From assembly GCA_958295785.1 (NCBI GenBank), contig OY282377.1:4404896-4468895 (forward strand): a DNA stretch of 64,000 nt, read 5' to 3'. Below are positions 15,835 to 58,595 of the stretch, one piece after another (the stretch's first letter is position 1; the number at the start of each line of letters is the position of its first letter). The DNA comes from an uncultured Latescibacterota bacterium (GTDB lineage Bacteria; Latescibacterota; UBA2968). A program made the translations under genes and the position numbers. The notes below the pieces were generated by a model. The model saw only the letters and a program-made list of their open reading frames with translations. It was not told the origin of the DNA and made no database searches.

Positions 15835-15839
15835 TTAAA

Positions 15840-17655: not shown

Positions 17656-17676
17656 AGCTATCTCCTATTGAAAATG

Positions 17677-18767: not shown

Positions 18768-18768
18768 A

Positions 18769-19262: not shown

Positions 19263-19282
19263 AACTGACGACTTGTTTTGCT

Positions 19283-22207: not shown

Positions 22208-22221
22208 TTTTTGCTTTCAGT

Positions 22222-24108
22222 CTAAATGGTCTTAAACACCATCTCGGTTTCGTTGGCGGTTGCATAGAATTTGAAAATCACGCCCGCATTGACTTTGAGT
22301 TCGTCGTTGAGATAAAAAGCCTCGTCCAAGCAGATGACCTGCGACGGACTGGCCTTGGCAAGCGCGTCGAAAAGCTCGGTCGTAAGTTCACGTTCAAGGC
22401 ACACCCTAATCTCGCCATCCGCGATGGAAAACACCTCTTTCTCTTCCACGACCTGCTTTTCAATTTTGGCTGTCAGAGGGAGTCCCGCATTCAGGAGAAT
22501 TTCATACAGAATATCCTCGGCACTGCCCTCCTTGTCAATGCGGTCAACCTGAAGTTCAAGTTGCTCGATGAGGGCGTCTGTATCTTCGACATCGCCATCC
22601 CATATCCTGAAGTTGGACGAGTCGAGTTTGAATGCCTTGAAGCCGAGATCGAGTTGACCATTGCCATTCAGGTCGAGTTGACCGTTTAACTCGTCCTCAA
22701 TTTTCGCCGCTGCACGGCGGATGCGTTCTTTGGCAATATCGGCAATCGTTTCATAGCCCGCTTTATGGGCTTCCGACTTTTCGTTCGTCGGCTCGGGAAG
22801 TTGCACGCAGATGTATTTGCGCTTGCCCCCGTCTTCGGCGTTGAGTTGCATGACAGCGTGGGCCGTGGTGGCCGAGCCGGCGAAAAAGTCAAGGACAATG
22901 TAGCTTTTATCCGATGCGATGGAGATAATCTTTTTTAGTAGAGAAATCGGTTTGGGATTGTCAAAGATCGACCGGCATTCGGGAAAAAGTTCCGCTAACT
23001 CTCCACTCGCGGAATCATTGGTTCCCGCATCATCCCAAACGCTGCGCGTATTTACACCGCGATGATCGAATAAAAACCGTTTTCTCTTTGGTTCTTTAGC
23101 TAAACCATCCTTTCCCCACCAAACAAGTCCGTTGCGTTCATTTTCCTTATGAACGTTTTTTTCACATCCCCAAACCCTTGTAGATTTGGTATGAGTATCT
23201 GGAAAAATTTTTTCCTTGGTGTTGGGTTGAGTTATCGCGTAGTAGAGATTGGGTCGTTCGTTCTTCGTCCATCGACTTCGATAATCGGTCTGTGCCCAAT
23301 CACCACGCGGATCGTTATCGGGATTCTTATATTGCAATCTTTGAGGACCAGTAAGCCTAACTCGCGGCAATTGATTGCTCGTTTTTCCGTAGATAACAAT
23401 GTTGTCATGCGTGAAAGCAAAAGACGGTTTGTTATCCCCACTGGTTTTTTTCCAAGCGATATTGCCAACAAAATTCTCCTCCCCAAAAATCAAATCCATG
23501 ACCATCCGCAGATGGTGAACCTCATTGTCGTCTATATTGACAAAAATCACCCCGTCTTCGCGTAGCAAATTGCGGGCGATATAGAGGCGCGGATACATCA
23601 TATTCAACCAACGCGAATGATAGCGACCATCGGTATCTACATTCGTCGAGAACTTGCGCCCATCTCCATCGACCTGTCCGGTGTAGGCCAGATACGTTTT
23701 CAGTTCCTCACAATACTTATCGGGATAGATGAACTCCTTGCCCGTGTTGTAGGGCGGGTCAATGGAGATCATTTTGACTTTGCCGAAGTACGCCCTCTGC
23801 AACAGCTTGAGCACCTCCAGGTTTTCGCCTTCAATGAACAGGTTTTCCGTCGCGTCGAAATGGACGGATTCATCCCGCAGGGGCTTCAACGTGGCACTAC
23901 TCGGCTTTTGAATGATTTTCATACACTCGGCCTTGCCCGGCCAGTTCAAACCAAAGCGTTCCGCATCAGAGGCTACCCAATCGCCCAAAACGCGCTTGAG
24001 TTGGTCAAAGTCAATGCGCTCCTCAGAAAAGACTTCTGGAAATATCCTCTTGAGATCCTCGCGCTTGTGTTCCGCGATATCCATTGAAGCCAGCGTCATT
24101 TTTTTCAT
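22222..24108 (-). CDS. mod: Type III adenine-N6 DNA methyltransferase, Mod subunit
   Basis: 628 residues. Motif IV DPPYNTG (117-123) comes before motif I (DFFAGSATTAHAV, about 400), which is the beta-class order typical of Mod proteins. The middle holds the target-recognition region. The ATG at 24108 follows AGGAGG. Near residue 480 a short repeat (NGQLDLNGNGQLDLG) may be a small expansion. Mod recognises and methylates the site and is needed for cleavage by Res, whose gene follows directly. Confidence 0.93.
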   Translation of the reverse strand: MKKMTLASMDIAEHKREDLKRIFPEVFSEERIDFDQLKRVLGDWVASDAERFGLNWPGKAECMKIIQKPSSATLKPLRDESVHFDATENLFIEGENLEVLKLLQRAYFGKVKMISIDPPYNTGKEFIYPDKYCEELKTYLAYTGQVDGDGRKFSTNVDTDGRYHSRWLNMMYPRLYIARNLLREDGVIFVNIDDNEVHHLRMVMDLIFGEENFVGNIAWKKTSGDNKPSFAFTHDNIVIYGKTSNQLPRVRLTGPQRLQYKNPDNDPRGDWAQTDYRSRWTKNERPNLYYAITQPNTKEKIFPDTHTKSTRVWGCEKNVHKENERNGLVWWGKDGLAKEPKRKRFLFDHRGVNTRSVWDDAGTNDSASGELAELFPECRSIFDNPKPISLLKKIISIASDKSYIVLDFFAGSATTAHAVMQLNAEDGGKRKYICVQLPEPTNEKSEAHKAGYETIADIAKERIRRAAAKIEDELNGQLDLNGNGQLDLGFKAFKLDSSNFRIWDGDVEDTDALIEQLELQVDRIDKEGSAEDILYEILLNAGLPLTAKIEKQVVEEKEVFSIADGEIRVCLERELTTELFDALAKASPSQVICLDEAFYLNDELKVNAGVIFKFYATANETEMVFKTI

Positions 24109-26988: not shown

Positions 26989-28081
26989 TAGGACTTACGC
27001 ATGCTAAGTTAAAAAAGGGTGCAATTCCGTAAAATGAATCACTTTGAGGAGGTGTCAATGCGCCACCCGACGCGTTTGGATTACTGTCAGTATCTGCTTA
27101 GCAGTCCCCTCAACGATACCCTGCCCCATTTCGCCGACCATAGCGAAGGGTTCAGTCATGATATGATCAACCGCTATCTCGCCGGTGAGCGTATCCCCCC
27201 CCCGCTTGGTGTGGGAACACGTCAAAGACCCCATCGCGTTGACGCCTGAAGGCGATGTGATCTTTGATGACACGGTTTTAGACAAGCGACACGCGCGCAA
27301 GATCGCGTTAGTGCGTCGTCAATAGAGCGGCAACGCCCAAGGCGTCATCAATGGCATTGGGGTGGTTACATGTGTCTATGTCAATCCGCAACAGGATCGG
27401 TTCTGGCTGATTGACGATCGGATTTATGACCCGCAAGGCGATGGCAAAACCAAATGGGATCCTCTCAAGGACATGCTCTCTGTGTTGGTCTATCAGAAGG
27501 GCCTCCCTTTTACCGGGGTCTTGATGGACAGTTGGTATGCGACCAAAACGGTCATGCGACACAGAGAGCAGATGCAAAAAACCTATTATTGTCCCCTCAA
27601 GACGAACCGGCGCGTGGACGATTCGGCAGGCACAACCCCCTACCAGCGCGTAGATAGCTTAACTTGGACTCAAGCGGAGCGCAAACAAGGCAAACCAATT
27701 AAAATCAGAGGGTTTCCCAAAGACCACAAAGTGAAATTATTCCGGGTGGCGTCTTCTGATAGACGCACGGCGTATGTCGTGACCAACGACCATGCTCAAA
27801 ACGATTCTTCAGGGGTACAACAGGTGTGTCACCAACGATGGAAAATTGAGCCCTTTCACCGCGAAGTCAAACAAGTGACCGGGCTTGAAAAGTGTCAATG
27901 TCGGTTGGCACGCATGGTACGAAATCATATTGGGTGTGCGATGTTAGTTTGGATAAGACTCGCGCAGGTGGCCTATCAAACAGGACAAACCATTTATCAA
28001 GTCAAATACCGGGGGCTGGCTGACTTCTTGAGACAACAACTCAAAGCACCTCATATTCCAATGGAAATTGCGTAAGTCCTA
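26989..28081 (+). mobile_element. IS701-type insertion sequence, copy 2 (inactive)
   Basis: 1,093 bp with the same TAGGACTTACGC ends. The flanks do not match each other, unlike copies 1 and 3: left is the GHKL gene, right is a PutAbiC tail. This suggests recombination between two copies with loss of the intervening DNA. Confidence 0.85.
27058..28075 (+). pseudogene. IS701 transposase, inactivated (copy 2)
   Basis: Compared with copies 1 and 3, an extra C in a C9 run near 27194-27202 shifts the frame. A TAG at about 27323-27325 replaces the TAT of the VRRQYSGN motif. The remaining sequence from 27362 is still open and similar to the other copies but carries many substitutions. Confidence 0.88.
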
Positions 28082-39772: not shown

Positions 39773-42121
39773 GTGGTCCTTTACGCGCTCTCGCATGCCG
39801 ATTTCGTCCGAGTACTCGAAAAAGCACCGCAGATCATTCGGGTTTTCGAGGAGACCACGCAAAATGAACCCGAACCCGAGGCATTGCCTCAAAATGGTCG
39901 GATCGACATTCTAAAAATCGAGCCAGAACTTCGCATTGCGGATCAAAGCCCGCGAAAATTGCGAGACTACATCACCTTTCCATACATCAAGCAACGCGAT
40001 GAAACCGATTGCGGCGCGGCTTGTCTCGGCATGATCTGTCAGTATTACGGGCAATCCATCGGCCTCAATCGCCTGCGGGATATGGCCAATGTCTCGCGGG
40101 AGGGCACATCCCTATCCGCGCTTGCCGAAGCCGCTGAAAATTTGGGCTTTTTGGCGCGTGGCGTGCGAGTCGGATACGAAGAACTCGGCGACAGAGACCT
40201 GCCGCTCATCGCGCATTGGGAAGGCTACCACTTTGTCGTTCTGTTTCGGGTCAATTCAAAATACGCTTGGATCGCCGATCCCGCGCTCGGGCGCAGAAAA
40301 ATTCCCCGCAAAGAGTTTGAGGAAAAGTGGTCCAATCTCGCCCTCCTGCTCGACTATACGGAAAAGGTGTCGAGATATCGGCAAAGAAGATCATCATTCA
40401 GGCGGTTTTTTCCGTTTGCCCGTCCCTATTTCGGTATCCTCGCCGAAATCATGATCGCCTCCCTCGTCCTCAGTCTGTTCGGCCTCGCCTCTCCCTTATT
40501 CACACAGATGATCCTCGATCAAGTGCTCGTCCATCAAGATACCCGCCTGCTCAATCTCTTGCTGATGGGCATGATCATGATCGCCTTATTTCGCATCGCC
40601 ACCTCTGCCTTGCGGAACTACCTGATTGGCTATGTGGGAGCGCGAATCAGCATCTCGATGTTGTCACATATTTACCATCATCTCCTCCGGTTGCCCATGC
40701 GGTTTTTCGCCCTCCGCAGAACCGGCGAAATCATGACGCGATTTCGAGAGAGCGAATATTTGAGGAGCTTATTGACGGAAACGGCCATTTCAGCCGTCTT
40801 AGATGCGATTATGATCGTCGTCTATTTGGGCTTGATGTTCTATTACCACACTTCTATGACCTTTTGGGTTTTGGCGTTCATTCCGATCAGCGTTGTCCTC
40901 ACCCTCATCTACACACCCATCCTCAAGTCCATCAACCAGCGATCTTTTCTCGCACGCTCGGAATGGTCATCTGTGCTCATCGATTCGCTACGCGGCGTTG
41001 AAGTCATCAAAACACTGGCAGTCGAAAGGGCTACGCGATGGTTGTGGGAAGAACGGTTGACCCGCGAAATAAAAATCGGTTTTGGCGCGATAAAAATAAA
41101 TATGCTATTTGGGTCTTTGGGACAGTTGAACAGCGTGTTGGGTAGCACGGTTGTGCTCTGGTATGGCGCGAATCTGGTCATTCAGGGCGAATTATCGGTC
41201 GGGCAATTGATCGCATTCAACATGCTCAGCGGCAGGGTACTGGGGCCTATTATGGGATTGATCAACCTATGGCCGCAGATTCAACTGGCAAAATTGGGGC
41301 TGGATCGGTTAAACGATATTTTCGAGATGCGAACCGAATCATCGCGCAATCGCAACTATTCGGTGCAATTAACGGAGGTAGAGGGAAGGATAACTTATGA
41401 AAACGTGTTTTTTCGGTACGGATCGGGATCGACAGAACCCCATGTTTTAAGCGATATCAATTTGGAAATATCGCCCGGACAGAAGGTCGCCATTGTCGGA
41501 CGCAGCGGCGCGGGAAAAACAACCCTGGTCAAACTCATCCCCCGGCTCTTTGATCCCACAGAGGGTTGCGTCACCTTCGATGGCACGAACCTGCGCGAAT
41601 TTGATCCCGGATGGTTGCGGCGTCAGGTGGGCATGGTTTTGCAAGAACCGATCATGTTTAATGCCACCATTGCGGAAAACATCGCCATGGGGATCAAAGA
41701 CATCGATATGGACCGTTTGATCGAAGTTTCCAAACTCGCTTACGCCCACGAGTTTATCAAAGATCTACCAATGGGCTACGAAACCAAAATCCGGGAACAG
41801 GGGGTTGGGCTTTCCGGCGGTCAGCGGCAACGCTTGTCCATTGCCCGAGCACTGTATGGCGATCCCAAAGTTCTCATCTTTGACGAAGCGACAAATGCCT
41901 TGGATTCAGAGTCTGAGCAAGCGATACAGGAAGGGTTAGACGGCATGTTGGAAGGCAAAACCGCGTTTATTATTGCACACCGATTGAGCACGGTAAAAGA
42001 TGCGGATTTGATCATCGTATTGGACGATGGCAATATTGTTGAACGGGGAACGCACGATGCGCTCATCAAAGAAAAAGGGCTTTATTACGCGCTCTCAGGC
42101 CAACAACTACAGGTTGTGTAA
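39773..42121 (+). CDS. C39 peptidase-containing ABC exporter (bacteriocin/peptide type)
   Basis: 782 residues in the frame after the T7 run. The C39 cysteine protease domain has DETDCGAACLGMICQYYG (catalytic Cys), HWEGYHFVVLF (His) and ADPALGR (Asp). Six transmembrane helices follow, then the ATPase: Walker A GRSGAGKTT, signature LSGGQRQRL, Walker B VLIFDEATNALD, and H-loop IIAHRLST. Such exporters cut a double-glycine-type leader and export the peptide. They work with HlyD-type adaptors, and one follows. The N-terminal CNBDs are encoded in the previous frame. Confidence 0.9.
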   Translation: MVLYALSHADFVRVLEKAPQIIRVFEETTQNEPEPEALPQNGRIDILKIEPELRIADQSPRKLRDYITFPYIKQRDETDCGAACLGMICQYYGQSIGLNRLRDMANVSREGTSLSALAEAAENLGFLARGVRVGYEELGDRDLPLIAHWEGYHFVVLFRVNSKYAWIADPALGRRKIPRKEFEEKWSNLALLLDYTEKVSRYRQRRSSFRRFFPFARPYFGILAEIMIASLVLSLFGLASPLFTQMILDQVLVHQDTRLLNLLLMGMIMIALFRIATSALRNYLIGYVGARISISMLSHIYHHLLRLPMRFFALRRTGEIMTRFRESEYLRSLLTETAISAVLDAIMIVVYLGLMFYYHTSMTFWVLAFIPISVVLTLIYTPILKSINQRSFLARSEWSSVLIDSLRGVEVIKTLAVERATRWLWEERLTREIKIGFGAIKINMLFGSLGQLNSVLGSTVVLWYGANLVIQGELSVGQLIAFNMLSGRVLGPIMGLINLWPQIQLAKLGLDRLNDIFEMRTESSRNRNYSVQLTEVEGRITYENVFFRYGSGSTEPHVLSDINLEISPGQKVAIVGRSGAGKTTLVKLIPRLFDPTEGCVTFDGTNLREFDPGWLRRQVGMVLQEPIMFNATIAENIAMGIKDIDMDRLIEVSKLAYAHEFIKDLPMGYETKIREQGVGLSGGQRQRLSIARALYGDPKVLIFDEATNALDSESEQAIQEGLDGMLEGKTAFIIAHRLSTVKDADLIIVLDDGNIVERGTHDALIKEKGLYYALSGQQLQVV

Positions 42122-42156
42122 AGCACGCCCGCCCCACAATGATCTACGGAGTTCCA

Positions 42157-42267
42157 ATGGCTGAATCTCAAATTAAAAAACCGCTTGAGAACGAAGTTGA
42201 TTTGGCCGAGAGCACAATCGAATTTTTAGGGTCTTTACGTCCCTTTTTTAGCCGGGCACTGATTTAT
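42157..42267 (+). pseudogene. HlyD-family adaptor, N-terminal fragment
   Basis: Starts MAESQIKKPLENEVDLAEST and reads SLRPFFSRALIY before the IS630-type element. With the element and one TTTAT copy removed, the frame continues directly as YLLLLFIALTLVWAWYGQVD. The gene begins 35 bases after the exporter stop. Confidence 0.75.
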
Positions 42268-42278
42268 TACTCTGTAAA

Positions 42279-42989
42279 TTAAGTTATTTTAAGTTTTGAA
42301 TTGTCTGGATAAACGCGTTGATAATGGGTATTCATCTTGTCTCTGGCCTTGGGCAAAGTGAACTGCCAATTCAAGGGGATACCCTTGGCCTCTCGCTCCT
42401 GAAAGAAGGCCAAAACTTCCCGGCGCAGTTCCGCCTGCGTCGCGATGCGCCTATTCAAACATCCTCGCGCCAGAGCCGAAAACGCAATCTCGATCATGTT
42501 GAGCCAACTCGCCGACTTGGGAGTAAAGAAGAACTCAAACTTCTGCGCGAGGGCAAACGCCTCATCGGCTGGCAAGGAACGATAGAAGGCATGGCGGGTA
42601 TGCGTGTTGAGATTGTCTTGCACCAAGCGGATTTTCTCCGCTTGTGGCCAATGCTGTGTCAGGGCCTGACAAAAGTGGGTGTATTCCTTCATCGTGCGCC
42701 GAGGATAGATTTCGGCAAGCCGTTTGCCGCTTAAAGGCTCAATGGCAGCCAACAGCGCACGCGAGCCGTGTTTGGTGTAAGCATAATGTTCTTTGGTCAC
42801 TTGGCCTGTTGTCAGGGGCAAGGGATCCAGGACTTGTCCGATGAGAAAACAGGGACGTTCATCAAAGCAGACCACAGGAACATTGGGATCATGAGGGTGG
42901 TCATACAGCCAAAGCAAGGCTTCCATGCGTGCGAGAAAGGACGCATCCACTTTGCTGATACACCATGTTCTCTTCAAGTGGGGCTTCAA
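42279..42989 (-). CDS. IS630 transposase, C-terminal catalytic ORF (copy 2, intact)
   Basis: DDE half with CFDERP, LVQDNLNTH and NMIEIAFS. It is expected to be made as a fusion with the preceding ORF by a -1 slip on an A8 run, giving KKNELKPHLKRTWCIS. It is open throughout, unlike copy 1. Confidence 0.85.
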   Translation of the reverse strand: MKPHLKRTWCISKVDASFLARMEALLWLYDHPHDPNVPVVCFDERPCFLIGQVLDPLPLTTGQVTKEHYAYTKHGSRALLAAIEPLSGKRLAEIYPRRTMKEYTHFCQALTQHWPQAEKIRLVQDNLNTHTRHAFYRSLPADEAFALAQKFEFFFTPKSASWLNMIEIAFSALARGCLNRRIATQAELRREVLAFFQEREAKGIPLNWQFTLPKARDKMNTHYQRVYPDNSKLKIT

Positions 42990-43408
42990 TTCGTTTTTTT
43001 TAGAATCGTTTTAACATGCGTGTGTGAGAGATGCTCACAAGAGCCCAATGCCACGCAGTGATCCGCCAAGAGGCGCAACGTCCATCTGCCATGGCCTGCC
43101 GGGGGGGTTGAACAGGCCAAGGCGGTGATTTGGGCCCGTTGCTTGCCCGTCATCTCCACCGGGCGTCCTGGCCGCGGGGCATCTTTGAGGCTGTCCAAGC
43201 CGAGGGTGCGGTATTTCTTTGCCCAATGACTCAGGGTCTGCCCGGTCATGCCGAGGGTTTGAGCCACTTGAGTGTAGGTTTTGCCTCGGTCGAGTTCAAG
43301 CAAGCCCAAAGCGCGTTTGTAGATTCGGGCTTTTTGGTCGCCTTTGGTGATCAAGGCGGTCAAAGTGTCTCGGTCTGTGGGGGTGAGTTGGACGTGTTGT
43401 TTGGGCAT
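42986..43408 (-). CDS. IS630 transposase, N-terminal helix-turn-helix ORF (copy 2)
   Basis: 140 residues from ATG 43408 behind GGAGGCG. Nearly identical to the copy at 13611-14033. It ends right after the A8 slippage run that links to the catalytic ORF. Confidence 0.82.
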   Translation of the reverse strand: MPKQHVQLTPTDRDTLTALITKGDQKARIYKRALGLLELDRGKTYTQVAQTLGMTGQTLSHWAKKYRTLGLDSLKDAPRPGRPVEMTGKQRAQITALACSTPPAGHGRWTLRLLADHCVALGSCEHLSHTHVKTILKKTN

Positions 43409-43461
43409 CAGAACGCCTCCTTGAAATAATTGAAATTCCAAATTATTTAATTTACAGAGTA

Positions 43462-44693
43462 TTTATCTTTTGCTGCTTTTTATTGCACTAACGCTGGTTT
43501 GGGCCTGGTACGGGCAGGTAGATATTGTCGCAACGGCTCCATTTCGTCTGGTTCCATTGGGAAAAGTTCAAAATATCCAAGCCTCGCGTTCGGGTGAGAT
43601 CCAAGAAATTGCCATCACTGCGGGAGATCGCATTGCCGAAGGGCAAATATTATTTTGGCTCCACTCACGAGAAACACTCCAAGAGTTCCGCGAATTGGAA
43701 CAGGCAGAAATCGCTTTCAAACGAGCTGAATTTGATTTGCAACAAACCTTGCCAAAAAAAAGAATTTTGGCAAAGGAGACCATTTCTGCCCTCGAGCATC
43801 GCGTTCGCGTCATGCAAACAGTCATGCAGACTTACAAAGAAGCACTTGGAAACCATATTGAAACACGGGATACGACATCCCATACCCCCGACCTCGAGTT
43901 GGAAATTCAGTTCAGATCTGCCGAAGTAGAGCATTTGAAACAGCGATATGAGCAAAACCAACAATTGTACGAAAAACGGCTCATCAGCCTTGCAGCACGC
44001 AATGAAGCCAAAGTTCGCTATCTCGGCGCATTGGCAGAACTGCCCGCACGGATGGCTGAAATTAACCGTTACGAGGTTTCCCTAAAGGAATTAAAACGCC
44101 AAATTTTAGAAGAGCAACTCGAAATCCAACGCACGGTAGCCGACTTCCAAAATGCTCATGACATTGCATCGGTCAGGCTCAAAAGGGCGAAACAAGCTGT
44201 GAACCGATCCGTGGATGCGGACCTCGATCTCATTCTCACACCCGAGGCAGGTGTTGTAACGCAAGTTTTGGTCAATACCCCTGGGCAGGTGGTCAATAAA
44301 GGCCAGACACTGGTAACAATCGCCCCTGCTTCTACCCCAATAGTGGCCGAAGCCCTAATCCTCAACAAAGATGTCGGTCTGTTGACATCTGGACAAAAGG
44401 TAAAGCTCAAATTCGAGGCATTTCCGTTTCAGGATTACGGCATCCAACACGGCTATTTGAGGCAGATTTCGCCCGATGCAATGGGCGATGAGCTTTCGGG
44501 GATTGTGTTTAGAGGGATCATCGATCTGGAGAAGACGATCCTCCATGTCCACGGTGAGGAAAAAGCGTTCAGGTTCGGCATGAAGGGCACGGCTGAAATC
44601 GTAACAGATCGCCAGTCCATTTTGATGCTCGCGCTCAAACCTTTGCGACAATTGCGCGAGTTAACCGCGTTTTCTCCAGAGGCAGATGAGTAG
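43462..44693 (+). pseudogene. HlyD-family periplasmic adaptor, main part
   Basis: Encodes the transmembrane helix (LLLLFIALTLVWAWYG), a beta-barrel/lipoyl half (GKVQNIQASRSGEIQEIAIT), a long coiled coil (about 43680-44200), the second lipoyl half (DLDLILTPEAGVVTQVLVNT) and the barrel strands GQKVKLKFEAFPFQDYGIQH. It would bridge the ABC exporter and the outer membrane. The gene is cut from its first 37 codons by the IS630-type element. A TTG at 43470 could still start a nearly complete protein including the membrane helix, so residual function is possible. Confidence 0.82.
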
Positions 44694-45521
44694 ATGGTTG
44701 AGGCGACAGATCCCATCTTAATTGAGGTAAATGGAACGCCTGTCCGCTTGTCCCATATCGTCAAATCAATGCGAGCGGCGGGAAAGGACAACTTGCACGA
44801 TTTCTTCACGCAACGCTGTCTGGTCTTTCAGATTGCTCAGCGAGAAAATATTGCGATTCCCCGAGATGAACTGCAAAACAAAATTGATCAATGGCGGTAC
44901 AAAAACAGATTGGAAAGTGTCGAGGATACAGAACGCTGGCTCTCTCAACGCCATATCTCCTTTGCCGATATGGCATTGGAAATTGAATACCAGATTCTCC
45001 GTGAGCGGCTGAAATCACAAATTACCACAGAGCAGATTCGAGCTTACTTCGGAAGCCGAAAACTGGCGTTTGAACGGCGGGAAATATGTTGGATTTTGGT
45101 CAATGAAATGGATATTGCCGAGGAAATTGCAACACAAGCAAGGGATGGTGGGCGAGATTTTCACGCCCTAGCACGTCACTATTCGCGTGATGAAAACACG
45201 CGGCCTGCCAGCGGGTATCTCGGTTGCTTGGCACGGCGAGATTTGCCCCCAGATATTGCGTCCTTACTTTTTGCGGCGTCTGTAGGCGAGGTGATTGGCC
45301 CCATAAAAATATCCTCCCATTATGAACGGGAGGAGACAGGCTACGCGCTATACCATATTCAACGCCACCGTCCCGCCGTGCTCGATGGCCCCACAAAAGC
45401 GCGTTGTGTGCAAAAACTCTACCACCTTCGCTTGAGACGCGAAGCAAAACGTAGCCATATATCGCATCCGTTCTTAAATTCAATATGCACAGCACACCCG
45501 CTTCCCCAAGGGGATGCGTAG
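44694..45521 (+). CDS. PpiC/SurA-like peptidyl-prolyl isomerase
   Basis: 275 residues, start directly after the adaptor stop (TAGATG). The N-terminal half is helical like SurA (HIVKSMRAAGKDNLHDFF). The parvulin-like domain contains RREICWILVNEMDIAEEIAT, DFHALARHYSRDENTRPASG and GYLGCLARRDLPPDI. PPIases of this type accompany peptide exporters with C39 domains and HlyD adaptors, probably aiding folding of exported peptides or proteins. No signal peptide is visible, so it may be cytoplasmic. Followed by a terminator. Confidence 0.8.
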   Translation: MVEATDPILIEVNGTPVRLSHIVKSMRAAGKDNLHDFFTQRCLVFQIAQRENIAIPRDELQNKIDQWRYKNRLESVEDTERWLSQRHISFADMALEIEYQILRERLKSQITTEQIRAYFGSRKLAFERREICWILVNEMDIAEEIATQARDGGRDFHALARHYSRDENTRPASGYLGCLARRDLPPDIASLLFAASVGEVIGPIKISSHYEREETGYALYHIQRHRPAVLDGPTKARCVQKLYHLRLRREAKRSHISHPFLNSICTAHPLPQGDA

Positions 45522-49919: not shown

Positions 49920-49931
49920 AAAGTAAATATT

Positions 49932-51023
49932 TAGGACTTACGCATGCTGAGTTAAAAAAGGGTGCAATTCCGTAAAATGAATCACTTTGAGGAGGTGTCA
50001 ATGGACCGACCGACGCGTTTGGATTACTGTCAGTATCTGCTTAGCAGTCCCCTCAACTATACCTTGACCCATTTCGCCGACCATAGCGAAGGGTTCAGTC
50101 ATGATATGATCAACCGCTATCTCGCCGGTGATCGTATCCCACCCCGCTTGGTGTGGGAACACGTCAAAGACCACATCGCGTTGACGCCTGAAGGCTATGT
50201 GATCTTTGATGACACGGTTTTAGACAAGCGACACGCACGCAAGATCGCGTTAGTGCGCCGTCAATATAGCGGCAACGCCCAAGGCGTCATCAATGGCATT
50301 GGGGTGGTCACATGTGTCTATGTCAATCCGCAAGAGGATCGGTTCTGGCTGATTGACTATCGGATTTATGACCCGCAAGGCGATGGCAAAACCAAATTGG
50401 ATCCTCTCAAGGACATGCTCTCTGCGTTGGTCTATCAGAAGCGCCTTCCTTTTACCGGGGTCTTGATGGACAGTTGGTATGCGACAAAAACGGTCATGCG
50501 ACACATAGAGCAGATGCAAAAAACCTATTATTGTCCCCTCAAGACGAACCGGCTCGTGGACGATTCGGCAGGCACAACCCCCTACCAGCGCGTAGATAGC
50601 TTAACTTGGACGAAAGCGCAACGCAAACAAGGCAAGTCAATTAAAATCAGAGGGTTCCCCAAAGACCACAAAGTGAAATTATTCCGGGTGGCGTCTGCTG
50701 CCAGACGCACGGCGTATGTCGTAACTAACGACCATGCTCAAAACGATTCTTCAGTGGTACAACAGGTGTGTCACCAAAGATGGAAAATTGAGCAATTTCA
50801 CCGCGAAGTCAAACAAGTGACCGGGCTTGAAAAGTGTCAATGTCGATTGGCACGCATTGTACGAAATCATATTGGGTGTGCGATGTTCGTTTGGATAAGA
50901 CTCGAGCAGGTGGCCTATCAAACAGGACAAACCATTTATCAAGTCAAATACCGGGGGATGGCTGACTTCTTGAGACAACAACTCAAAGCACCTCATATTC
51001 CAATGGAGATTGCGTAAGTCCTA
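49932..51023 (+). mobile_element. IS701-type insertion sequence, copy 3
   Basis: 1,092 bp, ends TAGGACTTACGC, flanked by TATT on both sides (49928-49931, 51024-51027). It lies between the start of the spermidine-synthase-like gene and the dioxygenase cluster. Confidence 0.88.
50001..51017 (+). CDS. IS701 family transposase (copy 3, intact)
   Basis: 338 residues, ATG 50001 behind GAGGAGG. Differs from copy 1 at a modest number of positions. DDE candidates IFDDTVLDKR, GVLMDSWYATK and WKIEQFHRE are conserved, so it is presumably functional. Confidence 0.9.
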   Translation: MDRPTRLDYCQYLLSSPLNYTLTHFADHSEGFSHDMINRYLAGDRIPPRLVWEHVKDHIALTPEGYVIFDDTVLDKRHARKIALVRRQYSGNAQGVINGIGVVTCVYVNPQEDRFWLIDYRIYDPQGDGKTKLDPLKDMLSALVYQKRLPFTGVLMDSWYATKTVMRHIEQMQKTYYCPLKTNRLVDDSAGTTPYQRVDSLTWTKAQRKQGKSIKIRGFPKDHKVKLFRVASAARRTAYVVTNDHAQNDSSVVQQVCHQRWKIEQFHREVKQVTGLEKCQCRLARIVRNHIGCAMFVWIRLEQVAYQTGQTIYQVKYRGMADFLRQQLKAPHIPMEIA

Positions 51024-51066
51024 TATTCAAAGGAGAGACGGGAGACGGCCGCCCGGCCCCATCTCC

Positions 51067-51204: not shown

Positions 51205-51978
51205 ATGCAACTCACGACCGAACAAATCCGCGAATTTTACGACCGCGGGTATGTCAAAATCCCCGGTGCCATCTCAAAAGCGATGGTTGACACGGCGCGT
51301 CAGGCCGTGAACCATTCGATTGGCACATTGGGGCCAAATGGCGAGGACATGTCCAAGCATCGCGCAGCGCAGTATTGCCGGGACTTGAATGGCAGTCCCG
51401 TGATTATGGACTTGTTCAACAACAGCCCGATCATTGCCCTTGCCGAATCGTTGATGGGGGAAGGCAATTTGCAAAAACCCATCCGAGGCGCGCAGGTGGC
51501 TCCGCGTTTTCCCAATGTCATCGGCGAAGATCCGCCCGAACCGCGTGGGCATCTCGACGGCATGGGCACGGGCACGAATGGCATGCCCAAAGGCGTGTAC
51601 CGCCGCGGGTTCACATGTTTTGCCGTCATCTATCTAGCCGATGTGCCCGAACCCTTCAGCGGCAATTATACGGTCTGGCCGGGGTCTCATCGCTTTTTTG
51701 AATCCTACTTCAAGCGCGAGGGCCTCGAAGTCCTCTCCAATGGTACGCCGCGCATTGACTTGCCCGAAGGCCCTGACATGATCACCGGCAACGCGGGCGA
51801 TCTCGTTCTCGCACACCACCAGATGGTCCACGGCGCCGGCCCGAATGCGTCTCCCAATATTCGCTACGCGGCCATTGCCCGCCTTCGCCACGTCAATTGC
51901 GATGAAAACGGCAATAAGGGCTTCCTCGACATCTGGCGCGAATTTCCCCGAGTGCGCGAAGTGCTCGCAGCGGCATGA
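51205..51978 (+). CDS. Phytanoyl-CoA dioxygenase (PhyH) family protein 1
   Basis: 257 residues, ATG after GAAGGAG. Non-haem Fe(II)/2-oxoglutarate oxygenase fold. The facial-triad HxD is likely in PRGHLDGMGTGTNG. The distal His and the 2-oxoglutarate-binding Arg are likely in MVHGAGPNASPNIRYAAIAR. LADVPEPFSGNYTVWPGSHR is the typical strand pair before the distal His. It is closely similar to protein 2 downstream, a tandem duplication. Substrate unknown; such oxygenases in marine bacteria may act on lipids or natural products. Confidence 0.88.
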   Translation: MQLTTEQIREFYDRGYVKIPGAISKAMVDTARQAVNHSIGTLGPNGEDMSKHRAAQYCRDLNGSPVIMDLFNNSPIIALAESLMGEGNLQKPIRGAQVAPRFPNVIGEDPPEPRGHLDGMGTGTNGMPKGVYRRGFTCFAVIYLADVPEPFSGNYTVWPGSHRFFESYFKREGLEVLSNGTPRIDLPEGPDMITGNAGDLVLAHHQMVHGAGPNASPNIRYAAIARLRHVNCDENGNKGFLDIWREFPRVREVLAAA

Positions 51979-52089
51979 GAAACAGCAACCACAGATGAAC
52001 GCGGATGAGATGTGAGACGGGAGACGACCGCACGGCCCCAGTCCCCAAGTAGTCAGTTGTCAGTTGTCAGTCTGCCCGGTCCCATCTCC

Positions 52090-52140
52090 GTAGGGACAGG
52101 CCCCTGTGCCTGTCCTTGCACCTAGCGGCGCGGCGGGGGC
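52090..52140. repeat. 51-bp repeat upstream of a dioxygenase gene, copy B
   Basis: Near-identical to 51067-51117. Just before it a short GTCAGTT tandem (about 52051-52070) is present. Confidence 0.75.
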
Positions 52141-52160
52141 TGAAAGCTCATTATGATGGC

Positions 52161-52189
52161 TTGACAGTTTGGGGTCGTACTGGTATTGT
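52161..52189 (+). promoter_or_regulatory. Putative promoter of second phytanoyl-CoA dioxygenase-like gene
   Basis: Consensus TTGACA (52161-52166), 17-base spacer, TATTGT (52184-52189), 78 bases before the ATG. Confidence 0.6.
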
Positions 52190-52267
52190 TTAGAAACGAT
52201 TAGCTGAATGCTTGGGGGCTGAGGGGACGGGCGGACTGACCGCTGACCACCAACAGAGAGGTTCACC

Positions 52268-53035
52268 ATGTCCATTACCGATGCACAAAAACGCCAATTC
52301 GTCGAGGAAGGCTATCTCAAAATCCCAGGTGTTGTGCCCAAAAGCATGATCGAAACCGCCTGTCGCGCGGTCAATCATTCCATTGGCAATGTGGGCATTG
52401 GCGGTGAAAACACTGCAAAACACCGCTCGGGATTTTTTTGCGCCGAACTTTTGGATGCGCCGTTCATCCTCGACATGTATAACGAGACGCCGGTGATGCA
52501 GATCGCCGAAGCCCTGATGGGCACGGGCAATGTCCTGCCGGTTGAACGCGCCAAAACCTATCCGCGCTTTCCAATGCCCCTAGGGGCAGAACCATCGCCA
52601 CCGCGCGGCCATATTGACGGCATTGGCAGCGGCACCAACGGCACGGCCAAGGGCGATTACAAGCGCGGCTTCACGGCCTTTGCCGTTATCTATCTCGCCG
52701 ATGTGCCCGAACCCTTCAGCGGCAATTTCACGGTTTGGCCCAAGTCCCATCGCTTTTTCGCGGACTATTTCAAATCGCACGGCCACGGCGTGCTCGCCCA
52801 GGGCATGCCCCGACCCGATTTGCCAGAAGACCCGGTGATGATCACCGGCAATGCGGGCGACCTCATTCTCGCACATCATCAGGTCGTCCACGGCGCGTGT
52901 CTCAACGCATCGCCCAATGTGCGCTTGGCGACCATCTCTCGCCTCAAGCACAAAGATGCCGATACAATCGGCAATGATGCGTACACAGACATCTGGCGCG
53001 AATGGCCCGGTCTTCACGACGCGCTCGAGAGTTGA
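52268..53035 (+). CDS. Phytanoyl-CoA dioxygenase (PhyH) family protein 2
   Basis: 255 residues. Iron-site motif PRGHIDGIGSGTNGTAKGDY and distal VVHGACLNASPNVRLATISR. Shares LADVPEPFSGNFTVWPKSHR and MITGNAGDLILAHHQ with protein 1, so the two arose by duplication. The stop overlaps a possible ATG (53035) of the next gene, indicating an operon with protein 3. Confidence 0.88.
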   Translation: MSITDAQKRQFVEEGYLKIPGVVPKSMIETACRAVNHSIGNVGIGGENTAKHRSGFFCAELLDAPFILDMYNETPVMQIAEALMGTGNVLPVERAKTYPRFPMPLGAEPSPPRGHIDGIGSGTNGTAKGDYKRGFTAFAVIYLADVPEPFSGNFTVWPKSHRFFADYFKSHGHGVLAQGMPRPDLPEDPVMITGNAGDLILAHHQVVHGACLNASPNVRLATISRLKHKDADTIGNDAYTDIWREWPGLHDALES

Positions 53036-53058
53036 TGGCAAATTTGAATGGGGTACCC

Positions 53059-53847
53059 ATGTCTATCGCCATTACCGAAACGCAGAAACGACAATACAGG
53101 GACGAAGGCTATTTTATCCTCGAAGCCGTTATTCCCGATCACCATCTCGAACTCTTGCGCGGGGAGTGCCAGACCTTTATCGACCAAATGCACGCACGTA
53201 TGGATGAGCAGGGCACGGACACCATTGGCATCAACCACCGCAACAAACGCTATTTTGTCTCCAACTGCTTTCGCCAGCAACCGCGCCTTCGCGCCTTTCT
53301 TTTTTCCGACCTCATGGCCGATATATGCCGCGCGACTTTGGGCGACAACGCGTACCTCTTTTGGGAACAGTACGTCGTCAAAGGTGCGGAAACCGGCATG
53401 AAATTTTCATGGCATCAGGACTCGGGCTATGTGGGGTATCCGGACCACAAACCCTATCTCACCTGCTGGTGCGCGCTGGATGATATGCGCGAAGAAAACG
53501 GCACCATTCACCTCTTGCCCTATTCGCGCAGTGGCATTCGCTCGTGGGTGCAACACATCGCGGAAGAAGGCAGCAACGACAAAGTCGGCTATTTTGGCGA
53601 CGACCCCGGCCTGATTGCAGAAGTGCCCTCGGGCAGCATTGTCGCCTTCTCCAGCCTTGTCTTTCACAGCAGCAGCCCCAACACCACCCCAAATTTGAGA
53701 CGTGCGTATCTCGGACAATACTCCTGTGAACCCATCCTCTCGCCCGATGGCAACAAACTCTGGGGCAACGCCGAACCCTTCCTCCGCAATGGGCAATCCG
53801 CAGTCGGCAACCCCTCGCCCAACTTCCCGTCGCGGCTGGATGCGTAA
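53059..53847 (+). CDS. Phytanoyl-CoA dioxygenase (PhyH) family protein 3
   Basis: 262 residues from ATG 53059; ATG 53035, overlapping the previous stop, is an alternative. Iron-site motif SWHQDSGYVGYPDHKPYLTC (HxD), then EENGTIHLLPYSRSG, distal His in SLVFHSSSPNTTPNLRRAYL. More distant from proteins 1 and 2 and closer to classical phytanoyl-CoA hydroxylases. Its stop is only six bases from the stop of convergent protein 4. Confidence 0.87.
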   Translation: MSIAITETQKRQYRDEGYFILEAVIPDHHLELLRGECQTFIDQMHARMDEQGTDTIGINHRNKRYFVSNCFRQQPRLRAFLFSDLMADICRATLGDNAYLFWEQYVVKGAETGMKFSWHQDSGYVGYPDHKPYLTCWCALDDMREENGTIHLLPYSRSGIRSWVQHIAEEGSNDKVGYFGDDPGLIAEVPSGSIVAFSSLVFHSSSPNTTPNLRRAYLGQYSCEPILSPDGNKLWGNAEPFLRNGQSAVGNPSPNFPSRLDA

Positions 53848-53853
53848 CGCCAG

Positions 53854-54702
53854 TTAGGAACTCGGATGCCCTGCCTCATCCATCAGCCGCAACCAATCCT
53901 CATGGCCTTTTGCTACCCGATCCGGGGCTATCGCGCTTTTGGCGACAAAGCCGGGCACCTGGTCGCGCCCGGTTGGCAATCTGTAATCGCTGTATCGAAT
54001 GTCCAGACTCCAGCGGATGTGGTCGGATTGATTTGGAAATGAGCGATGGACGGTCTTGTGCTGAATCAGGGCCGCGCCACCGGCTGGCAACACGGACAAA
54101 ACCCGGGGGGCCGGCGGCAACTGCGCCTCTGGAATTTCCAACTCGGACGCCACTTTTTGGTGGGGAATCATCCCACACTTATGGCTTCCGGCCAAAATTT
54201 CCAAACAGCCATTTTTCACATTGGTAGGGACCAGCGGCACCCAAAAGTTGATCATAAACGTATCTTCCACCTCTGGATCTAAAAACGCGATGTCCTGATG
54301 CCACGCCACTTCCGCTTCGCCGGGCATTTTTGCGCGGACGTTAAACTGCGGATGCACCAGAATTTCCGGGCCAATAATCGACTCGACCACGTTCAGGATG
54401 GCGGGATGGGTGAGCAAATAAAACAATCCCGCAGTCTTGTGGTCCTTGCCCAAAATCTCGCCGACAAAACGCTTGTCCGTTCCCATTGCCGCACAGAGAA
54501 GTGCCAACCGCTGATCAAATGGCGCGTCTTCAAACAGATCCTCCAATTGACCGCGCGCCTGGGCTTCCCGCGCCCTGCGTTCAATCGCCGCATGAAACTC
54601 ATCCACCAGCGGCTGATACGCCTCCACGGGCAGACATTCGTCCAGCAACAAATATCCCTCTGCTTTGTAAAAAGCAATCTGATCCTCTGTCAAACCAGCC
54701 AT
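53854..54702 (-). CDS. Phytanoyl-CoA dioxygenase (PhyH) family protein 4
   Basis: 282 residues, GGAGG before ATG 54702. Motifs: AWHQDIAFLDPEVEDTFMIN (HxD), ENG-like VKNGCLEILAGSHKCGMIPH, distal HKTVHRSFPNQSDHIRWSLD with the 2-oxoglutarate Arg. Lies downstream of protein 5 and the sulfatase on the same strand, with short spacings that indicate one transcript. Confidence 0.87.
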   Translation of the reverse strand: MAGLTEDQIAFYKAEGYLLLDECLPVEAYQPLVDEFHAAIERRAREAQARGQLEDLFEDAPFDQRLALLCAAMGTDKRFVGEILGKDHKTAGLFYLLTHPAILNVVESIIGPEILVHPQFNVRAKMPGEAEVAWHQDIAFLDPEVEDTFMINFWVPLVPTNVKNGCLEILAGSHKCGMIPHQKVASELEIPEAQLPPAPRVLSVLPAGGAALIQHKTVHRSFPNQSDHIRWSLDIRYSDYRLPTGRDQVPGFVAKSAIAPDRVAKGHEDWLRLMDEAGHPSS

Positions 54703-54717
54703 CGTTCACCTCCTGTT

Positions 54718-55497
54718 TTATTTTTGAAAATCCCTATCGCCTTTGAACGGCATGTTCTCACCCGGAATATATTTTGGGCGCGGCGCGTAGGCATTTTTGA
54801 CATCGGGGTCGGCTTTGCCGCGTACGAGGATGTTTTCGTGGTTTTCCTTTTTTACCCAGGTGGTCGTTGGAATATAGCGCAGGGTGAGGCCAACGCGCCA
54901 TTGGTCGGATGTGTTGGCGTTGGAGCCGTGGATGATATTGGGATTGTGGATTGAGACGTCGCCTGCGTTGAGTTCGAGATCGACCGCGTCTGAATCGTCG
55001 ATCTGATCGGGGCGAATGCCCACGCCGAGTACGTACTTTTCCGAGTCCAAGTCAATGAGTTCGCGGCGTTTGTGCAAGTGCGCGTTCTGCGTGCCGGGCA
55101 AAACGCGCATGCAGCCATTTTCAATTGTCGATGCCGTGCCCGCAACCCAGAGGGTGGTCACTTCCATCGGCTCGAGGGGCCAGTAAGAGCCGTCTTGATG
55201 CCACTGCACGGCCCGCCCATCGCCAGGGGGTTTGGCGATGTAATGGGCCGCAAACAGTGCGATGTTGGGGCCGAGGAATTGTTCGGCCATGTCTGCGAGG
55301 CGTTCATCGCCCACGAGCCGGTGCATAAAGGGATCGCGTGCCAGCAAATGGTGGTGCAGGTGTTCTGGACGCACGCCGGGGTTTCTTTTGCAAAGCCAGT
55401 GGACGTGTTGCACGGTTTCTGCGGCGAGCGCTGGATCGATGGCTTTTCGCGCGATCACATAGCCTTGTTGGTCGTATTCGCGGCGTAAGTTTTTCAT
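54718..55497 (-). CDS. Phytanoyl-CoA dioxygenase (PhyH) family protein 5
   Basis: 259 residues. VQWHQDGSYWPLEPMEVTTL holds the iron HxD, IENGCMRVLPGTQNAHLH precedes the distal region, and NIIHGSNANTSDQWRVGLTL carries the distal His and Arg. The ATG overlaps the sulfatase stop by four bases. The coupling suggests that the sulfatase and oxygenase act on the same compound, for instance a sulfated lipid or polysaccharide breakdown product; that is inference. Confidence 0.88.
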   Translation of the reverse strand: MKNLRREYDQQGYVIARKAIDPALAAETVQHVHWLCKRNPGVRPEHLHHHLLARDPFMHRLVGDERLADMAEQFLGPNIALFAAHYIAKPPGDGRAVQWHQDGSYWPLEPMEVTTLWVAGTASTIENGCMRVLPGTQNAHLHKRRELIDLDSEKYVLGVGIRPDQIDDSDAVDLELNAGDVSIHNPNIIHGSNANTSDQWRVGLTLRYIPTTTWVKKENHENILVRGKADPDVKNAYAPRPKYIPGENMPFKGDRDFQK

Positions 55498-56987
55498 CGC
55501 GCGTGCTCCTGATGTCGCGGTGTCGTGCGTTGGCCTGATCGGATGTCTCGCAGCCGGTTCGCCATTTGATCCGCGATATCCGGATGGGCTGACGCCACAT
55601 TTTCGATCTGCCCAATGTCGCCCGACAGGTCGTAGAGTTGTGGAGCAGAGGAATTGCCGGTTTCGATATTGACATTGGTGTTCACCGGCGGGCCCTCATG
55701 GGGCGGAATGAAAACCCAGTTGCCCTGCCGCAAAACGGTTTTTGCCTGAATGCCTTCCAAGACGATCTCGGCGCGGCCCTCATCGGTTTGACCCAACAGC
55801 GCGTCGAGCACGTTCGCGCTGTCGGGGCCTGCGTCAGAACCGAGCGCAACGCCGGTCAGTGCGGCAAAGGAGGCGAGGAAATCGACCTGGCTGACCAGAG
55901 CTCGCGATGCGCCGGGGTTGACCCCGCCGGGCCAGGACAGGATGAAGGGCACGCGGGTGCCGCCGTCATACATGCTGTATTTGCCGCCGCGCAACGGACC
56001 TGCCGGGCGATGGTTGCCGCCGCGTTCAACGGCTTGGTCGCAGTACCCGTCGTTGAGCACCGGGCCGTTGTCACTGGAAAAGACCACTATCGTATTTTCT
56101 TTGAGACCGTGCCGGTCGAGCGCGTCGAGCATTTCGCCGACGCACCAATCCATTTCCACAATGGCATCGCCGCGCGGCCCCAGTGCTGTGCTGCCCACAA
56201 ACCGGGGATGGGGCAGGCGCGGGACATGGGGTTGGTGGAAAGCGTAGTACAAGAAAAAGGGGGTGTTTTTGTTTTGTTCGACGAATGAGAGGGCTTTTTC
56301 GAGAAAGACATCGGCCATTTCTTCATCGACCCAAAGCGCTGCGTCGCCGCCTTTCATGTAGCCAATGCGGCTCACGCCATTGACAATGCTCATGTCGTGC
56401 CCGTGGTGGTATTTCATTTTGAGCAATTCGGGATTGTCTTTTCCCGTAGGCAGGCCGGGAAAGGGCTTGTTTCTGTCGTACTCGACTTCGATGGGATCGG
56501 CTGGATCCAGGCCGACGACATTTCTGCCATCGAGGTACACGCAGGGCACGCGGTCATTGGTTGCGGCCATGATGTAGGAAGTGTCAAATCCAATGTCGAG
56601 CGGGGTTCCGGGCAGGGGCGCGTTCCAATTTTGATCGCCCGCGCCAATGCCGAGGTGCCATTTGCCCACAACGGCCGTTGCATAGCCGGCCCGTTTGAGC
56701 ATCGAAGGCAAGGTGCATGTATCGGGATCGATGATGAGGGGCGCGTCGCCGGGCAAGATGTGTGCGCGTTCATTGCGCCAAGAATAAGACCCCGTGAGCA
56801 GGCTGTAGCGCGAGGGGGTACACGTCGCGGCGGTGGCATACCCATTGTGAAACACCAACCCCTCGGCGGCGAGGCGGTCAATATTGGGCGTGTCGAGTGC
56901 CGTGGCACCGTAACAGCCCACATCGCCAAAACCGAGATCATCGGCGTACATAACAATGATATTGGGACATTTTGTCGAATCGGTCAT
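55494..56987 (-). CDS. Sulfatase (arylsulfatase type)
   Basis: 497 residues. The active-site signature CTPSR lies in ATAATCTPSRYSLLTGSY; the cysteine is converted to formylglycine in active enzymes by a maturase not seen here. Metal-binding residues are in ADDLGFGDVGCYG and SSDNGPV. There is no signal peptide, so it may be cytoplasmic, unusual for sulfatases that attack extracellular polymers. First gene of the sulfatase-PhyH5-PhyH4 operon. Confidence 0.9.
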   Translation of the reverse strand: MTDSTKCPNIIVMYADDLGFGDVGCYGATALDTPNIDRLAAEGLVFHNGYATAATCTPSRYSLLTGSYSWRNERAHILPGDAPLIIDPDTCTLPSMLKRAGYATAVVGKWHLGIGAGDQNWNAPLPGTPLDIGFDTSYIMAATNDRVPCVYLDGRNVVGLDPADPIEVEYDRNKPFPGLPTGKDNPELLKMKYHHGHDMSIVNGVSRIGYMKGGDAALWVDEEMADVFLEKALSFVEQNKNTPFFLYYAFHQPHVPRLPHPRFVGSTALGPRGDAIVEMDWCVGEMLDALDRHGLKENTIVVFSSDNGPVLNDGYCDQAVERGGNHRPAGPLRGGKYSMYDGGTRVPFILSWPGGVNPGASRALVSQVDFLASFAALTGVALGSDAGPDSANVLDALLGQTDEGRAEIVLEGIQAKTVLRQGNWVFIPPHEGPPVNTNVNIETGNSSAPQLYDLSGDIGQIENVASAHPDIADQMANRLRDIRSGQRTTPRHQEHAR

Positions 56988-57187
56988 GGTTTGTTCTGTC
57001 CTTTCTCAAACCAAAATTTGTTTGCAATAATCGGGTTGGCAATATAGGGCGTTGTCCAAATGGCAAGCAAGCAGAAAGACGCAGACGCACTGTAGAGCGG
57101 CGTCAGATTTTGCGTTAGAAGATGAAACAAAAAGCGGATTCTGACGTAAAAGGCGGTGAGACAGCAAATTTACACAAAGGAGGAAAT

Positions 57188-57988
57188 ATGGTTGCGCGAT
57201 TGGCGGTTGTTGCCGCGTTGTTGAGTTGGGCGGCCCAGAACGCCGCGGCGGAAACCTATCCGGCGGCAGAGGGATTTGATCGGGCGGGGTCAGATGCAAA
57301 AGCCATTGAGATTGCCGATGCGGTGATGAAAAAAATGGGCGGGTGGCAGAATTGGGATCAGACGCGGTATCTTACATGGCGTTTTTTTGGAAGGCGTTTG
57401 CATGTGTGGGACAAGTGGACGGGCAATCTGCGGTATGAAGACCGGGAGACGCTCATTTTGATGAATCTCAAGACCAAAAAAGGCCGCGTGTGGTTTGGCG
57501 GCGCAGAGGAGACAAATGTCGATTCCGTAAAAAAGTACGTGAATCAGGGGTACAGGCGGTGGATCAATGATTCGTATTGGCTGGTGATGCCCTATAAGTT
57601 GAAGGATTCGGGCGTGACATTAACATACGGCGGCGATGATAAAACGCAGGATGACCGCCCCGCGCATAAATTGACCCTGACTTTTGCGGATGTGGGGGTT
57701 ACGCCGCAAAACAAATACGATGTCTGGGTGGATAAAGAGCACAATCTGGTGACGGAGTGGGCGTTTTATCGCAATGCCTCAGATGCAGAACCCCGTTTCC
57801 GCAACCCGTGGACAAATTGGACAAAGCACGGCAATATCCTGCTTTCCGATGGCCGAGGATCCACGCGCCGAGGCGAACGCAAGCACTCGGATATCGCGGT
57901 TTTTGATGCGTTGCCGGCATCGGTCTTTGAGAGTCCCGATTCCGTGGATCTGATGGCGTTGAAAAATCGGCAAGGCCGTGGTCAGTAG
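57188..57988 (+). CDS. Secreted protein of unknown function
   Basis: 266 residues with a signal peptide (MVARLAVVAALLSWAAQNAA) and a strong AGGAGG site. The mature part is rich in Trp and Tyr (RYLTWRFFGRRLHVWDKWTG, RRWINDSYWLVMPYKLKDSG), resembling periplasmic LolA-like or DUF6503-like proteins. No enzyme motif seen. Stand-alone gene ending before a strong terminator; a 190-base gap separates it from the sulfatase start. Confidence 0.7.
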   Translation: MVARLAVVAALLSWAAQNAAAETYPAAEGFDRAGSDAKAIEIADAVMKKMGGWQNWDQTRYLTWRFFGRRLHVWDKWTGNLRYEDRETLILMNLKTKKGRVWFGGAEETNVDSVKKYVNQGYRRWINDSYWLVMPYKLKDSGVTLTYGGDDKTQDDRPAHKLTLTFADVGVTPQNKYDVWVDKEHNLVTEWAFYRNASDAEPRFRNPWTNWTKHGNILLSDGRGSTRRGERKHSDIAVFDALPASVFESPDSVDLMALKNRQGRGQ

Positions 57989-58119: not shown

Positions 58120-58153
58120 AAATCCCCGTTAAAATTTCTAATGGGGATTTTTC
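58120..58153. terminator. Bidirectional terminator between convergent genes
   Basis: AAATCCCC/GGGGATTT stem with extra TTA/TAA pairing. T-rich on both strands. It serves the SRPBCC gene ending at 58152 on the minus strand. Confidence 0.65.
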
Positions 58154-58595
58154 ATTTTGCGAGGATGTCTTTCAGCGAGTCAAATCCGCCTTGAAAGACC
58201 CCATTGCCGATGAAATCGACGAGTTCCTCTTCCTCGTCTGGTGGACAGGCAAATTCCGCGGTCCATTGGATGTACGTGCGATTGCCGTCTGTAACCGGCG
58301 TCAATCGCAATGTCGCCACGTAGTTTTCAACGGCCATGGGCGATTCGAGGATGGAATACGTACACGTAAAGGTGGCGTCGCTCAGGGTGAGCAGTTGTTC
58401 GCGGATATTGCCACCATCTTTGAGATTGAAATTGCGAATGCAGCCCACTTTGTCGCTGGGTTGGTCGCCTTCAATATGGCTGTTTGCAACTGCGGGGTGC
58501 CAGTCGGGCAGGGCATTAAAATCGCGGATTTTCGCCCACACATCGTCTATGGATGCGTCGAGAACCGAACTGACAAAAACACTGGCCTTGGCCAT
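58152..58595 (-). CDS. SRPBCC (START-like) family protein
   Basis: 147 residues. It begins with the typical VSSVLDASIDDVWAKIRDFN (polyketide-cyclase/START-like fold), with a central GCIRNFNLKDGG and a long C-terminal helix (LVDFIGNGVFQGGFDSLKDI). A hydrophobic-cavity fold that binds small lipophilic ligands. AGGAGG precedes ATG. Substrate unknown. The gap 58596-58936 upstream contains no gene, only a 23-bp palindrome. Confidence 0.8.
   Translation of the reverse strand: MAKASVFVSSVLDASIDDVWAKIRDFNALPDWHPAVANSHIEGDQPSDKVGCIRNFNLKDGGNIREQLLTLSDATFTCTYSILESPMAVENYVATLRLTPVTDGNRTYIQWTAEFACPPDEEEELVDFIGNGVFQGGFDSLKDILAK

Follow-up and report, generated by a model that had tools for sequence, protein, structure and literature searches.

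Among the solved enzymes that share the PhyH fold, SnoK, SnoN and HygX act on sugar moieties, and SyrB2-like halogenases lack the Asp ligand. The closest described sulfatases to the one considered here are those of the S1_15 group. In the BT3333 paper, as far as its accessible text goes, residues D173, R174 and H225 are reported to contact O4 and O3 of GalNAc6S, and the accessible portion of a review describes the same D/R/H triad for galactose- and GalNAc-6-sulfatases of S1_15. An expansion of phyH genes of the kind seen in the present genome is described, in the available part of the report, for the Poribacteria, a phylum of sponge symbionts (PMC3909097). The available part of a reef demosponge paper reports 44 Latescibacterota metagenome-assembled genomes from sponges. 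No published description of a PhyH-sulfatase gene block was found in the open-access literature searched.

The DNA analyzed here comes from an uncultured Latescibacterota bacterium (UBA2968) whose whole genome is a single contig of 5.66 Mb (GCA_958295785.1, contig OY282377.1). The window, the whole stretch of 64,000 nucleotides that was analyzed, covers forward positions 4,404,896-4,468,895. At positions 51205-56987 lie five genes for PhyH-type oxygenases and one for a sulfatase. They form two convergent groups: PhyH1, PhyH2 and PhyH3 are read on the plus strand, and the sulfatase, PhyH5 and PhyH4, in that order, on the minus strand (Table 1). These identities had been proposed in a preliminary description and were confirmed by Pfam matches and by the identity between PhyH1 and PhyH2. 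A longer start for PhyH3 at 53002 is less likely than the 53059 ATG, since the genus orthologues align from the latter. Promoter and terminator scans gave results near the shuffled level, and the gene block showed no transporter, glycosidase or sugar kinase.

Table 1. Features of the PhyH-sulfatase locus and its flanks (positions in the window)
Feature	Position	Strand	Assignment and remarks
Insertion sequence	49931-51024	+	DDE transposase at 49962-51017; adjoins PhyH1, at the PhyH6 place of relatives
PhyH1	51205-51978	+	Fe(II)/2OG oxygenase, divergent PhyH subfamily; PF05721, 27.4 bits
PhyH2	52268-53035	+	PhyH1 paralogue, 57% identical
PhyH3	53059-53847	+	PF05721, 80.8 bits
PhyH4	53854-54702	-	PF05721, 84.4 bits
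PhyH5	54718-55497	-	Class-wide PhyH; PF05721, 111.7 bits
Sulfatase	55494-56987	-	S1_15-type, predicted formylglycine enzyme; C56-T-P-S-R60; triad D145/R146/H197; without signal peptide
Flanking gene	57122-57988	+	Genus-conserved neighbour; L030 orthologue matches DUF6503
Flanking SRPBCC protein	58152-58595	-	Polyketide_cyc2; genus-conserved neighbour

The gene block is real and under selection. The preliminary description had staked its reading on neighbours that stay together in relatives, and the locus is co-conserved in all ten genus relatives compared, as far as their contigs reach. In full, the genus arrangement runs PhyH6-PhyH1-PhyH2-PhyH3 facing GWxTD-PhyH4-PhyH5-sulfatase, with the 57122-type gene and then the SRPBCC gene beyond the sulfatase, and it is complete in G029, G031, G034 and G038 (loci L049, L051, L047 and L030). 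The relatives are draft genomes, so that some of the losses seen elsewhere could be assembly faults: PhyH2 is missing from G035 (L054) and G036 (L052), PhyH4 is missing from G032 and split in two in G036, PhyH3 is reduced to a fragment in G030, and G033 is without PhyH3 and PhyH4 and has its GWxTD gene reduced to 34 residues. G037 is broken across contigs, which makes its PhyH1-3 unreadable, and the PhyH2 place of G032 falls between contigs. The order and strand of the remaining genes are kept across the genus genomes, and all 11 of these have both the sulfatase and PhyH5. The close coupling of these two genes, as first described, also holds: they overlap by ATGA in the window, and of the nine genus relatives in which the gap was measured, seven have 1-4 nt and the remaining two have 125 and 173 nt (the G030 value was taken from the printed sequence). 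The six bases between the convergent stops of PhyH3 and PhyH4 (53848-53853) are likewise as first reported, but this spacing is derived, since in relatives a GWxTD-domain gene occupies that place. The window's genome has no GWxTD orthologue (best match 44%), and PhyH6 has no match in it at 1e-10, while the same query matches the loci of eight relatives. Compared with two relatives, all six genes of the block have dN/dS values of 0.04-0.13, ratios that are rough since dS exceeds 1 for several pairs; these values indicate purifying selection, and the remaining genes of the block are therefore maintained in the window's genome.

The insertion sequence beside PhyH1 has matching ends, TAGGACTTACGCA and TGCGTAAGTCCTA, and is flanked by TATT at either end (both judged by eye). 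This pattern suggests a simple insertion rather than a deletion between copies, and the idea that the element caused the loss of PhyH6 was set aside. The same element has at least 40 matches in the genome at 96-100% identity (best 40 of 132 candidates scored), and stretches of it occur in the window at 49931-51024, 11780-12835 and 27019-28072, one of the three in two pieces. A restriction-modification island also occupies 15696-24108 of the window, where G+C is lower, with a C-5 cytosine methylase (15696-16613), a type III restriction-like gene (19283-22207) and an N6/N4 DNA methylase (22222-24108). Genes for a Peptidase-C39 ABC exporter, an HlyD protein and a PPIase at 39773-45521 resemble a bacteriocin-type or peptide secretion locus.

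The assignment of the sulfatase to the S1_15 type is well supported by its sequence. Aligned over nearly its full length, it scores 481-578 bits (E < 1e-140) against eight solved chains of S1_15 or S1_15-like type, and its CTPSR maturation motif is intact, with C56 and P58-R60 invariant in a 16-row alignment. Its D145, R146 and H197 align with D175, R176 and H225 of the BT3333 chain and are invariant in the same 16 rows; the numbering of the Asp-Arg dyad in the chain is shifted by 2 from that of the BT3333 paper (D173/R174), and H225 is the same in both. These residues point to galactose- or GalNAc-6-sulfate as the probable substrate class. The PF00884 match begins at residue 8, which leaves no room for a signal peptide, and an ATG lies at the same place in six genus orthologues (L025, L027-L031). 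For these two reasons the sulfatase is most likely cytoplasmic, as the preliminary description had held. Its closest named relatives, at 85-87% identity, lie on seven contigs, six from Latescibacterota/Latescibacteria and one from Gemmatimonadota. In the sulfatase tree the genus gene groups with one Latescibacterota and one Sumerlaeota row (support 88/87; long branches flagged). No shared partner was found near sulfatase homologues outside the class (10 proteins, 7 loci scanned).

The five oxygenases belong to four lineages. Only PhyH1 and PhyH2 are close, at 57% identity; the others reach 19-26% in their longer alignments, and tandem duplication as the origin of all five was rejected on this ground. 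PF05721 is above its cut-off in PhyH1, PhyH3, PhyH4 and PhyH5; PhyH2 has no Pfam match at 1e-3, yet it is the close paralogue of PhyH1. The HxD...H Fe(II) ligands and the 2OG-binding Arg are invariant for all five (alignments A1-A4): H116, D118, H209 and R220 in PhyH1 (24 rows of A2, in which PhyH2 is also aligned), H119, D121, H203 and R214 in PhyH3 (7 rows), H135, D137, H219 and R230 in PhyH4 (7 rows), and H100, D102, H190 and R201 in PhyH5 (23 rows). None of the five therefore looks dead. The structure comparison called for in the preliminary description was run for PhyH1 and PhyH5, and both models match solved PhyH enzymes. The nearest solved folds to the PhyH1 model (pLDDT 87) are GriE, SnoK and SnoN, with FtmOx1, MysH and HygX also found, and those nearest to the PhyH5 model (pLDDT 87.7) are SyrB2, ThoJ and SnoN, followed by SnoK, MysH and PHYHD1; the best PDB sequence match of PhyH4 is 6zyk. 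With fold identities of about 15-24%, the reaction class, that of an Fe(II)/2OG oxygenase, is clear and the substrate is not transferable, the nearest folds equally including amino-acid hydroxylases, halogenases and terpene or alkaloid enzymes. The PhyHs fell below the NCBIfam cut-offs for ectoine hydroxylase (best 32.4 of 336.5 bits), methylphosphonate hydroxylase (30.8 of 500 bits) and chlorinating enzyme (63.9 of 226.3 bits).

Outside the genus the two conserved partners are distributed differently. Across the 64 phylum genomes searched (sulfatase E <= 1e-100, PhyH5 E <= 1e-60), the sulfatase occurs in 14, comprising 11/11 in the genus, 0/36 in the rest of the class and 3/17 elsewhere, and PhyH5 occurs in 40, of which 29 are among the 36 genomes of the rest of the class; at most the best 24 sulfatase and 41 PhyH5 candidates per genome were scored, and the absences rest on that ranking. 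Of these 29 PhyH5 loci outside the genus, 20 were inspected; none of the 20 has an S1_15 orthologue, and three show weaker matches to other sulfatases. PhyH5 is thus kept in the class without an S1_15 gene, and its job is therefore independent of the sulfatase. The same 20 loci have no constant PhyH5 partner, their neighbours being varied; the commonest neighbour cluster (9/20 loci) resembles, by eye, another PhyH.

Both families are numerous in the window's genome, which has 93 PhyH matches in 5.7 Mb, about 90 sulfatase matches and 17 FGE-domain matches. A class relative, G049 (6.3 Mb), has 152 PhyH and 55 sulfatase matches. When 95 PhyH genes (the 93 found by search plus PhyH1 and PhyH2, which the search missed) were placed uniformly over 5.66 Mb, five in a row with gaps below 1.5 kb arose in 0 of 5000 placements. 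Of 93 PhyH, 12 have a sulfatase neighbour on the same strand within 1.5 kb; circular shifts give a mean of 3.1, with 2 of 2000 shifts as high. With this cluster left out, the count is 10 of 90 against a mean of 3.0 (8/2000 shifts). The test took 90 of 93 sulfatase rows (three were omitted, two of which scored below the cut-off) and counted split genes twice. The trend is weaker in G049, where 7 of the 150 PhyH used (of 152 matches) have such a neighbour against a mean of 2.8 (38/1000 shifts). Neither genome shows a significant excess when the limit is set at 1 kb and both strands are counted. Across the genome, PhyH genes therefore tend only mildly to pair with sulfatase genes. In both genomes most PhyH genes have no sulfatase nearby.

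The formylglycine maturase for which the preliminary description recommended a search is encoded in the genome: a canonical FGE with paired Cys lies at C1:592932 (L017 ORF; site GGSYLCHDSYCNRYR) and matches 6s07 with 410 bits. Separate from it, a run of FGE-sulfatase-domain matches at G000:C1:4210618-4229453 (G000 being the window's genome) holds 8 of the 17 matches in 19 kb, and two of these share one 936-residue frame. The bacterium is probably a sponge symbiont, a view that draws on the Latescibacterota genomes reported from reef demosponges.

The reading tentatively preferred here, and held with slightly less than balanced confidence, is that of a genus-specific block for the cytoplasmic 6-O-desulfation of imported galactosides combined with PhyH oxidation of the same or related molecules. 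Small sulfated glycosides would be taken up from the host or sea water, and the S1_15 exo-sulfatase, activated by the FGE in the cytoplasm, would strip 6-O-sulfate from small galactose- or GalNAc-type sugars or glycosides. The co-encoded PhyHs of four lineages would use Fe(II), O2 and 2-oxoglutarate to oxidize C-H bonds in these small molecules or in related ones, for instance by removing an O-methyl group from the sugar or hydroxylating the aglycone, so that the products could enter central metabolism. That the PhyHs share the substrate of the sulfatase is a guess, as are the reactions they may run. The sugar-acting SnoK, SnoN and HygX among the nearest solved folds and the excess of PhyH-sulfatase neighbours in the window's genome speak for the preferred reading; the weaker trend in G049 and a block in which no transporter, glycosidase or sugar kinase was seen speak against it. 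A single shared pathway for the block is unproven. Two observations weaken it: PhyH2, PhyH3 and PhyH4 can each be absent from a relative that retains the sulfatase, and PhyH5 is widespread in the class where this S1_15 sulfatase does not occur. A more specific form of the proposal is a hitherto undescribed aerobic route in sponge-symbiont Latescibacterota, in which galactosides with a 6-sulfate, perhaps also O-methylated, would lose the sulfate in the cytoplasm and five to six distinct PhyHs would then oxidize them stepwise. This form is speculative and unlikely.

Almost as likely as PhyHs that share the sulfatase's molecules is an arrangement of independent neighbours, in which an S1_15 sulfatase was gained or kept in the genus alone beside PhyHs with separate jobs and the clustering reflects the presence of about 90 members of each family. 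The abundance of both families (93 PhyH and about 90 sulfatase matches) fits such an arrangement, as do the piecemeal loss of PhyH2, PhyH3 and PhyH4, the occurrence of PhyH5 in 40/64 genomes against 14/64 for the sulfatase (best <=41 and <=24 candidates per genome) and the lack of a constant sulfatase neighbour at 20 PhyH5 loci outside the genus. However, a five-PhyH run is unexpected by chance (0/5000), the order and strand of the remaining genes are kept in the genus, and the sulfatase-PhyH5 spacing is 1-4 nt in 7/9 relatives.

The nature of the sulfatase bears on two further proposals. Catabolism of host chondroitin sulfate, with the enzyme acting on GalNAc6S from glycosaminoglycan in the manner of BT3333, is suggested by the presence of BT3333 among its S1_15 matches and by the accessible parts of a review and a research paper, which place BT3333 at the last step of chondroitin use. 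This proposal is improbable: no GH88 (PF07470) was found in the genome, although controls matched in three named genomes, which disfavours the Bacteroides chondroitin route, and Trp 207 of the BT3333 chain, at a guess the N-acetyl-binding Trp of the review, corresponds to Leu 179 in the sulfatase. The lipid pathway ventured in the preliminary description, in which sulfated lipids or algal metabolites would be desulfated and then hydroxylated by phytanoyl-CoA-type enzymes, draws on the name of the PhyH family and on PHYHD1 and human PHYH among the matches. It is very hard to sustain, and a sulfated-lipid substrate was dropped, given a sulfatase of the sugar-type S1_15 group with a galactose-recognition triad; in addition, bacterial PhyH members act on many small molecules, as the solved folds and the available part of the Poribacteria report (PMC3909097) indicate.

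If the more specific, stepwise form of the galactoside reading is true, it would provide the first clue to what the many PhyHs of such symbionts act on. A PhyH-sulfatase block whose sulfatase has a predictable sugar specificity makes a concrete and cheap substrate screen possible, and the block is a substrate lead for an enzyme family that is unusually numerous in these bacteria.

Compared with known systems, the sulfatase is like the S1_15 exo-6-O-sulfatases (BT3333, PDB 6s20; Pseudoalteromonas S1_15A/B, PDB 9bas/9bau) in its whole-length similarity, its CTPSR motif and its D/R/H triad. The characterized S1_15 enzymes are exported, being periplasmic or having signal peptides according to the accessible text of their reports, whereas this sulfatase is without a signal peptide; it also neighbours oxygenases and no glycosidases, unlike those enzymes. 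The locus PhyHs share the fold and the Fe(II)/2OG ligands of ThoJ (6zyk/6zyl), SyrB2, SnoN/SnoK, GriE, MysH and PHYHD1, at only about 15-24% identity in fold alignments, and they possess the Asp ligand, unlike the SyrB2-like halogenases. The phyH expansion of the Poribacteria (PMC3909097, available part) likewise comprises very many diverse PhyH genes, mostly of undescribed function. The Poribacteria are another phylum, and the same part of that report suggests phosphonate use (phnY) for some of their PhyHs, whereas the PhyH group described here is tied to a sulfatase.
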